A DNA stretch of 45,376 nucleotides, taken from Pseudanabaena biceps PCC 7429 (GTDB lineage: Bacteria; Cyanobacteriota; Cyanobacteriia; Pseudanabaenales; Pseudanabaenaceae). The notes under the pieces were generated by a model. The model worked only from the letters and a program-made list of their open reading frames with translations. It was not told the DNA's origin and searched no databases. Below, in pieces: positions 17,539 to 19,750 of the stretch (positions are counted from its first letter, which is position 1; each line of letters opens with the position of its first letter). The stretch covers positions 1-45,376 of the forward strand of contig NZ_ALWB01000010.1 in NCBI RefSeq assembly GCF_000332215.1, written 5' to 3'. Both the position numbers and the translations under genes were made by a program.

Positions 17539-18123
17539 ATGACAGTTCAATTGCTTACGCAAAACCAGAATAAGTTGGCGAATAAGTTCCTATTGACGAC
17601 CCAGCAATATCATCTCATGCACGAAGTTGGTGTTTTCCAAGAGGGCGATCGCCTCGAACTAATTAACGGAGAAATTACAACCATGTCACCAATTGGCAGA
17701 AAACACGCTACTTGTGTTGCTCGACTGAATGCAATATTTACTACTCGTCTTTTTGGCAAGGCTATCATCTGGCCGCAAAACTCAATTCGTCTAAATGATA
17801 ACTCTGAGCCACAGCCAGATATTGCCATCTTAAAATTTCGTGATGATTTTTATGAAGAGGGATTACCAACCCCAGAAGATATTTTGTTAATTATCGAAGT
17901 TGCTGATAGTTCCATTGACTATGATCGCGAAGTAAAAGCACCTCTATATGCGGCGGCGGGGATTCCTGAAATGTGGTTGTTTGATGTAAATAAAAAAGAG
18001 ATCGAGGGATATTCGCAACCATCGGCAAATGGATATAAGTTAATCAGACGCTACGATGAGAATGATACTCTATCAATTCTTGCTTTTCCTAATGTGACTT
18101 TCAATTGGAATGAATTGTTTTAA
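17539..18123 (+). CDS. Uma2 family endonuclease (DUF820)
   Basis: A 194-residue protein of the very common cyanobacterial Uma2 family, which has a PD-(D/E)XK nuclease fold. The expected core is present: QPDIAIL (Asp), then LIIEVADSSIDYDREVKAPLYAAAGIPE with Glu and Lys, and MWLFDVNKKEIEGY. The N-terminal YHLMHEVGVFQEGDRLELING is also typical. The substrate is unknown; such genes occur in many copies per genome, often near mobile DNA. Here it opens a small patch of accessory genes between nagA and ycf23. Confidence 0.88.
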   Translation: MTVQLLTQNQNKLANKFLLTTQQYHLMHEVGVFQEGDRLELINGEITTMSPIGRKHATCVARLNAIFTTRLFGKAIIWPQNSIRLNDNSEPQPDIAILKFRDDFYEEGLPTPEDILLIIEVADSSIDYDREVKAPLYAAAGIPEMWLFDVNKKEIEGYSQPSANGYKLIRRYDENDTLSILAFPNVTFNWNELF

Positions 18124-18184: not shown

Positions 18185-18463
18185 TTAAGACTGCTGTAGC
18201 TTAATCAGGGCTTGGGTTTTGGCAAGGCGTACTAAATGCTCGATAAATTCATAATGCTCCCATAGTAGGCGATCGCTTTCATTAAAGCTTTGAGCACGAT
18301 TTTTTTCTAATAGATTATCAATTTCTTGCTGTGCGTCTGGTGCAAGGAGTAAATTCAAGACTTCTTGAGGGGATGGAAGTTCGGCTAAGAAGTGCAAGAT
18401 GTCTGCCAATCCAGAAAAGCCATTATTGGGATTAGGGTTCATTTCTCGCAATCCTAGCGACAT
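18185..18463 (-). CDS. Small antitoxin-like cyanobacterial protein, 92 residues
   Basis: A helical, acidic protein with the pattern LPSPQEVLNLLLAPDAQQEI, then LLEKNRAQSFNESDRLLWEH and YEFIEHLVRLAKTQAL. I recall this pattern from abundant small cyanobacterial proteins that often sit next to nucleases or toxins and behave like antitoxins; the role here is inference. The frame starts MSLGLREM, and the Met at residue 8 is another possible start. It is convergent with the Uma2 gene (61 bp between stops). Confidence 0.65.
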   Translation of the reverse strand: MSLGLREMNPNPNNGFSGLADILHFLAELPSPQEVLNLLLAPDAQQEIDNLLEKNRAQSFNESDRLLWEHYEFIEHLVRLAKTQALIKLQQS

Positions 18464-18604
18464 TAAAGGTCACACAAAAAATGAATCAACTCTACTCTTT
18501 ACTAAAGTAAAAATTGATCTGTTTTGAGTAAGTTTGACAATAAAAGGAATGCTCTCTCAAAACTAGGAAATCTATATATCCATAAAACATTTTTTCCATT
18601 ATTT

Positions 18605-19624
18605 CTATGAACTAATATTCCTATATAGAATCCTTCGACCTCCTTTTTCTGTAGACTCATCCGAAAACTCAAACAAATTGCTTGCTATCATTAAATCTTT
18701 TAATTTCTTAAATCCAAATTTTTGCTTTAGAGAATTCAACTCTTCTGGAGATTGCTTTTTGATCTTACTAATTGCTACATCTAGGGAAATCCATCCATTG
18801 GGACGCAGTTGTTGTCTAGCAATATCAGAAAGCAAGTAGATAAGCGAGCTATTTACTAGAAAATCATGTTTTAATTTGTCAACTAATTCTTGTGTATATT
18901 CTTGAAGGCTTTCTTGTAGCATTTCGGTATATGCTTTCAAACATTGAAATGTCGGCTTTATCTGATTGTCATATTGATAATCAAGTTCTTTACACGCCAA
19001 CTCACACCCTTCAATTGAATTTAAATAATCCCAATTTGGCAAGGAATTATGTACAAGTAAGTTTCTATTTATCCTCAGCAAATCAAAAGATTCTTGACTC
19101 TTCTTTTTTAGATTGCTATTTTTTTCAAACCTAACATCAATAGAAACCCAAATTCCTGTGAGACTTTCTGGTGTTTTATCTTGATCAGATGAAGTGCTTT
19201 CTTTGAAAAAATCTTCAATTAACTGACCCATATTTTTATTGCCGTAATACTCTAATTTTTTGTCTGCAAGTATCTTTAGTTCATTGCTATATCCTGAAAT
19301 ATATCTACGAGATAACAAGTATTTTAATTGTATCTCTATCTTTTGTAAGAGCATAATGTTTCTACCAATTTTGCAATATACATTACTCTTAAATTGTTCT
19401 AAATCTATTCCTGCTTTCTGGACTCTATCTGAAACATCTTTTTCAGTGGAAGCACCCAAACCTACTATTGACAGTAAAAAACTGTTGTAAGGGGTATCTG
19501 TTTTTATGTCAACAGTCTTGTAGCGAAGGTAGCCAATAAAATTGATAAGCTCAGAGAAAGCATCCTCTGGCAAGTTATCAATTAACTCAATAATCTGCTG
19601 TCGCGTTGGAGTTAGAGTATTCAT
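18605..19624 (-). CDS. Three-part protein: DUF2281-like N-terminus, HEPN-like domain, OST-HTH/LOTUS domain
   Basis: A 339-residue protein not in any family I can name as a whole. Residues about 1-40 (QQIIELIDNLPEDAFSELIN) resemble DUF2281-type antitoxin N-termini. The middle (about 80-235) is helical and has RNLLVH (Arg187-x4-His192), the RX4-6H motif of HEPN ribonucleases. The C-terminal part (about 265-335: LLSDIARQQLRPNGWISLDV, FGFKKLKDLMIASNLFEF, then RILYRN) fits an OST-HTH/LOTUS RNA-binding domain. A HEPN-like plus LOTUS pairing exists in bacteria; the antitoxin-like head is unusual. No HIP1 site occurs in the gene and it is AT-rich, which suggests transfer. An upstream in-frame ATG at 19651 is possible; neither start has a clear ribosome site. 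Confidence 0.72.
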   Translation of the reverse strand: MNTLTPTRQQIIELIDNLPEDAFSELINFIGYLRYKTVDIKTDTPYNSFLLSIVGLGASTEKDVSDRVQKAGIDLEQFKSNVYCKIGRNIMLLQKIEIQLKYLLSRRYISGYSNELKILADKKLEYYGNKNMGQLIEDFFKESTSSDQDKTPESLTGIWVSIDVRFEKNSNLKKKSQESFDLLRINRNLLVHNSLPNWDYLNSIEGCELACKELDYQYDNQIKPTFQCLKAYTEMLQESLQEYTQELVDKLKHDFLVNSSLIYLLSDIARQQLRPNGWISLDVAISKIKKQSPEELNSLKQKFGFKKLKDLMIASNLFEFSDESTEKGGRRILYRNISS

Positions 19625-19703
19625 AAGCAAAATATGAAAGATACTCATCATATTTTAGCTGCAAGATTAGGCGATCGCGCTTTTGGCTAGCTGATTTTAT
19701 GAG

Positions 19704-19750
19704 AAAGGCGATCGCTTTGAATTTTCTAAAAGTTCAAAGCGATCGCCTTT
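19704..19750 (-). terminator. Hairpin terminator after ycf23
   Basis: An 18-bp perfect stem (19704-19721 with 19733-19750), each arm carrying a HIP1 palindrome. It lies about 50 bp past the ycf23 stop on the minus strand and before the LOTUS-domain gene. It may terminate ycf23 transcription. Confidence 0.5.

Follow-up and report, generated by a model that had tools for sequence, protein, structure and literature searches.

On the reverse strand of the window, by which the whole analyzed stretch of 45,376 nucleotides of Pseudanabaena biceps PCC 7429 DNA is meant, a chimeric gene encoding 339 amino acids occupies positions 18605–19624. Its product combines a DUF2281-antitoxin head, a HEPN-like domain and an OST-HTH/LOTUS domain. 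The gene is real, and all three parts named in a preliminary description of the locus were confirmed, the antitoxin-type head, the HEPN motif and the LOTUS tail each being borne out by sequence comparison. The probable start is the ATG at 19624, which is common to the related antitoxins, all of which begin at the MNTL/MNSL methionine; for this reason a longer frame from 19651 was considered unlikely as the start. A full-length match, with the head and the body (residues 70–339) joined, was obtained only in the organism's own genome, 1 of the 26 genomes of the genus.

HEPN-like and LOTUS domains of the body

A HEPN-like helical domain was placed at about residues 76–257 (18854–19399, reverse strand) on the basis of homologues, a helical model and sub-threshold HEPN matches of relatives. 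The HEPN active site is an Rx4-6H motif with a polar residue after the arginine, aided by a second motif, Ex3[KR] (PMC3710099). Family conservation identified the first as R187-N188-L-L-V-H192 (19049–19066, reverse strand), exactly where RNLLVH had been reported in the preliminary description. The second, E97xxxK101 (19322–19336, reverse strand), was assigned from family conservation together with the definition in PMC3710099. The preliminary description had let its HEPN reading hinge on conservation of the motif in homologues, and RNx3H was indeed kept in 39 of 39 family members, some of which are near-identical copies. Ex3K stands at the same place in all 37 members that include the N-terminal region.

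Single relatives gave sub-threshold Pfam matches to HEPN_RiboL-PSP, DUF3644 and HepT-like families; the window protein alone matched no HEPN family in the Pfam search. Profile alignment to HEPN_RiboL-PSP placed RNxxxH on RNxxxH with a weak E value of 0.007, compared with 0.07 for the reversed control. An AlphaFold model of the HEPN region (nine sequences) was mainly helical, with a mean pLDDT of 83. Foldseek returned no significant solved relative for this model (best E 0.53; HEPN toxin 7bxo at E 2.2), and the fold search with the whole-protein model gave no significant HEPN match. Judged from the motifs and their conservation, the domain is very probably HEPN, and a HEPN fold may be expected from the motif.

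LOTUS domains are mainly studied in animal germ cells. In the window protein, PF12872 was matched at residues 265–324 (18653–18832, reverse strand) with 24.4 bits (cut-off 23.8), and with 26.8 bits in a six-frame search. Seven of nine family members matched the same profile, with a best E value of 4.9e-9. The LOTUS assignment in the window protein is weak but significant, and the earlier claim of such a tail holds, narrowly above the cut-off here and strongly in relatives. Almost all bacterial LOTUS proteins carry DUF88 in front of the domain according to a 2010 survey (PMC2848206). These LK-nuclease (DUF88/NYN)-OST-HTH proteins resemble the window protein in joining a predicted RNase to a C-terminal LOTUS domain, but their nuclease is PIN/NYN-like, whereas that of the window is HEPN-like. 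A DUF88/NYN-LOTUS protein is also encoded in the organism's own genome, on contig 116.

Antitoxin head and cassette exchange

Residues 1–69 (19418–19624, reverse strand) correspond to the N-terminal portion of a DUF2281-family antitoxin. With most of the intact antitoxins in the genus they share 73–81% identity (compared over codons 1–69 or 1–70), which substantiates the antitoxin-like N terminus described earlier. An intact copy in the organism's own genome, on contig 28, is 78% identical to the head and overlaps the gene for a 137-residue PIN toxin (PF01850). Against PF10047 (DUF2281) the head scored 19.3 bits, below the cut-off of 26.5. Because intact antitoxins of the same subfamily likewise remained below it (21.5 and 17.2 bits), the DUF2281 name is approximate; the relation to antitoxins is clear from the alignments. 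Validation in E. coli has been published for a VapC/DUF2281 pair (PMC12654330). As in DUF2281-VapC(PIN) pairs (PMC4963859, PMC12654330), the chimera has the first ~69 antitoxin residues and the upstream region; unlike them, it lacks the antitoxin tail and the PIN partner and carries an unrelated effector, covalently joined. The conserved tail DEEILxxEVxPIRGW is replaced in the window gene. At 25 loci where the partner of a related antitoxin could be read, the same small PIN protein, recognized by sequence likeness, was the partner in 15, DUF4238 in 3 and a PIN_8 protein in 1; a HEPN-LOTUS gene was the partner at none of the 25.

The gene lies downstream of a DUF561 gene, at a variable toxin-antitoxin site where in three relatives (G165, G124 and G076) a DUF4238 gene comes after an intact antitoxin gene. 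Relatives share ~86–90% DNA identity with the window from a point upstream of the start as far as codon 68, where the similarity stops. The upstream part of this similarity (19625–19715, reverse strand) is common to the antitoxin loci of relatives and would hold inherited expression signals. The junction falls at codons 68–69 within the antitoxin reading frame (19413–19423, reverse strand), the BLAST alignment ending at 19423; here the window reads gatgtttcagatagag followed by tccagaaagc, and a relative reads gatgtttcagagagagacgaagaga. Similarity resumes at ~18604, the first base after the stop codon of the chimera, inside what is left of the 5' portion of an HI0074-like (NTase_sub_bind) gene (18462–18604, reverse strand). 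This downstream flank is 76–77% identical to four related loci (L099, L100, L102 and L110), starting from the stop codon or at most 25 bases beyond it; the L099 counterpart of the remnant is PF08780. Gene order beyond the flank carries on alike in several relatives. The loss of similarity at codon 69 and its return directly after the stop codon show a cassette exchange: a foreign AT-rich cassette, coding for a nearly full HEPN-LOTUS protein, has replaced the last ~20 antitoxin codons and the partner gene, in frame at codon 69.

That two unrelated loci were joined during assembly is highly improbable. The draft genome (5.47 Mb) consists of 464 contigs and the chimera is present in one genome only, which would suit such an artifact, but the two flanks keep the order and orientation that they have in relatives, only the cassette between them differs, and the junction lies inside a single 45-kb contig.

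Composition agrees with an exchange. The gene has a G+C content of 32.3% compared with 42.9% for the window, so that its earlier description as AT-rich is correct. The body has 30.7% and the head 38%; only 0.02% of equal-length stretches elsewhere in the window match the value of the body. The preliminary description had proposed recent acquisition, also on the ground that the gene contains no HIP1 site. For the body the proposal is supported by composition and synteny, but the HIP1 argument does not hold: among 1020-bp stretches taken from the whole window, 27% are also without the site, which makes its absence uninformative. We rejected a translational restart between head and body, since no in-frame ATG, GTG or TTG occurs between codons 61 and 90. 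Translation of the body must therefore begin with the head or at a codon from 91 onward.

Selection on the head was assessed from codon comparisons. Window-private changes affect 6 of 67 codons (4 non-synonymous, 2 synonymous), no worse than in intact antitoxins. Pairwise dN/dS values were 0.26–0.62 against the window compared with 0.14–0.23 among the other antitoxins. Relaxed selection was not accepted as a conclusion from this, dN/dS being somewhat raised yet the private changes few. Judged from its codons, the head is not clearly decayed, and it may therefore serve some function itself.

A recent swap could also have left a chance in-frame chimera without function or useful expression, decaying in a graveyard of toxin-antitoxin genes. 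Such an origin would agree with the presence of the gene in 1 of 26 genomes and with neighbors that are remnants themselves (18462–18604 and the truncated 92-residue ORF at 18185–18463). It would also agree with the nearest relative in the genus, where only an N-terminally broken homologue of the body is found, at a contig edge. However, 339 codons have stayed open with all family motifs kept, the join is in frame, the other breakpoint coincides with the stop codon, and the start and upstream region are retained. We consider a functionless chimera rather unlikely, though a serious alternative.

Several further genes were noted at this and related sites. The ORF at 18185–18463 (reverse strand) corresponds to a 111-residue protein (MQITLDIPDDI...) but is truncated at the N terminus; the full-length protein precedes a PIN_3 toxin gene in L110, and the truncated copy is probably a broken second antitoxin. 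A gene of the Uma2 family (putative restriction endonuclease; 17539–18123, forward strand) adjoins the site and is kept in several relatives. At the same site in G172, an Abi_C (abortive infection) gene (L097, 2279–3097) lies beside a shortened DUF2281 antitoxin, and because of this gene, effectors at the site seem to be often exchanged. A DUF2281 antitoxin directly precedes or overlaps a DUF4238 gene in L099 (1254–2652), L110 (224–1637) and L100 (482–2046), possibly an undescribed toxin-antitoxin pairing.

Relatives of the body and their gene neighborhoods

Two kinds of headless relatives of residues 70–339 were found: proteins consisting of the HEPN region only, most of them cyanobacterial, and HEPN-LOTUS proteins from both cyanobacteria and proteobacteria, encoded on chromosomes, plasmids and integrative elements. 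Three genome samples showed the family to be rare, with members in 7 of 386, 3 of 369 and 11 of 399 genomes. The closest relatives of the body are only 20–31% identical, so that an activity could not be transferred from a tested protein; we know of no experimentally tested relative. A tree built from the helical domain groups the window protein with one from its own genus (G137), both on long branches whose joining is possibly false. The homologue of the body in the nearest genus relative is the broken one described above. For a pattern scan, an 11-row alignment offered no sufficiently conserved stretch, and a three-row alignment gave eight relatives. Scanning public genome contigs with the full protein and searching phages and viral contigs yielded no match. 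G303 carries near-identical HEPN-only genes at two places on one chromosome (L042 and L043), which suggests recent duplication or mobility.

The DUF2281 head is absent from every other family member found. Homologues with and without the head had been proposed as a check of the idea that a fused head restrains the RNase, and the outcome, with all others headless, argues against it. In that reading the head would block the HEPN RNase in cis, and proteolysis or a phage signal would set it free, as in CapRel. The head does come from a bona fide antitoxin family (PMC12654330) and is intact and conserved, and fused single-chain toxin-antitoxin proteins exist (PMC9712102; the HicA-HicB protein Slr1999 in Synechocystis, PMC4963859). 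However, the family from which it derives is partnered by PIN proteins or DUF4238 and by no HEPN-LOTUS gene, the DEEILxxEVxPIRGW tail is lost, the other HEPN-LOTUS proteins also have no constant partner, and in the model of the chimera the linker and part of the head (residues 1–12 and 36–65) remained under pLDDT 50. Because of the non-cognate antitoxin family, the lost tail and the headless relatives, restraint by the head is unlikely. The term toxin-antitoxin-like fusion, used in the preliminary description, therefore names the pieces rightly but misleads on how the chimera would work.

The neighborhoods of headless relatives were inspected for hints of function. One gene directly follows HsdM and HsdS (L061), one overlaps an MmeI-like enzyme (L035), two adjoin HsdR (L037 and L059) and one lies between Nmad2/Nmad3 and GmrSD (L058); five loci in all touch or are close to restriction-modification or related genes. 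In a Burkholderiales group (L132–L134), a gene for an ImmA/IrrE-type (M78) peptidase overlaps the start of the HEPN-LOTUS gene. An XRE-like HTH gene precedes the ImmA/IrrE gene in L133 and L134, and the gene set of the group looks like a regulated operon. Other members sit among recombinases, and many show no restriction-modification neighbor. No conserved partner gene was found in the neighborhoods of relatives. PADLOC models gave no match for the window protein and only weak single matches in relatives. The restriction-modification neighbors suggest a defense effector, with which they are compatible, but are no proof of it.

In this respect the body resembles the HEPN RNases of restriction-modification and defense loci (PF18735 HEPN_RiboL-PSP and EC042_2821/DUF3644, PF12358; PMC3710099), which are also helical, carry Ex3[KR] and RNx3H and lie near restriction-modification genes; there is weak sequence likeness around RNxxxH. 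It differs from them in passing no Pfam HEPN cut-off, and a LOTUS domain at the C terminus was not found among the HEPN architectures surveyed in PMC3710099.

The domains could alternatively form an RNA-binding regulator rather than a toxin, with a catalytically weak HEPN domain and the LOTUS domain binding particular RNAs. LOTUS is a predicted RNA-binding domain (PMC2848206), a non-catalytic, RNA-binding role is assumed for some HEPN domains (PMC3710099), and many family members are without defense neighbors. However, the full predicted catalytic set is invariant across distant members, whereas non-catalytic HEPN families have lost theirs (PMC3710099), and the scattered, mobile distribution is atypical for housekeeping regulators. 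A regulatory role is therefore unlikely.

Proposed function of the chimera

We favor, with somewhat better than even confidence, a LOTUS-targeted HEPN ribonuclease of defense type that is made via a captured antitoxin start and arose by cassette swap, with the head unlikely to be an inhibitor. The product would be a HEPN-type metal-independent endoribonuclease, probably a dimer, with R187, N188 and H192 as the active site together with E97 and K101. The LOTUS domain would bind and select RNA for cutting or sensing. Since relatives adjoin restriction-modification genes, the protein would most likely act as a growth-arresting effector of phage or mobile-element defense. The head would supply the signals for expression (start codon, ribosome-binding site, promoter) and might also act as a dimerizing or DNA-binding module. 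The RNase would be kept silent by low expression, by substrate choice or by some trigger. Like the single-chain toxin-antitoxins CapRel, EzeT and Slr1999 HicA-HicB, the chimera holds antitoxin-derived and toxin-like parts in one chain; unlike them, it arose by a strain-level cassette swap, and there is no sign that the head is cognate to the toxin part.

No description of HEPN joined to LOTUS was found in a literature search that covered mainly open-access papers. Within the literature searched, neither the HEPN-LOTUS architecture nor the antitoxin-stub chimera appears to have been described, each single piece being of a known kind. As a broader and more tentative proposal, HEPN-LOTUS proteins could be an undescribed group of RNA-targeted abortive-infection RNases on plasmids, integrative elements and restriction-modification loci, of which the window shows an effector captured by an unrelated antitoxin start, giving a single-chain toxin under new control. 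If true, a second, unrelated RNase-like partner of LOTUS would point to a repeated design of nuclease plus LOTUS. The body would offer a small protein with which target recognition by bacterial LOTUS domains can be tested, and the locus shows how a swap of partners inside the antitoxin gene can turn toxin-antitoxin sites into sources of new effector chimeras.
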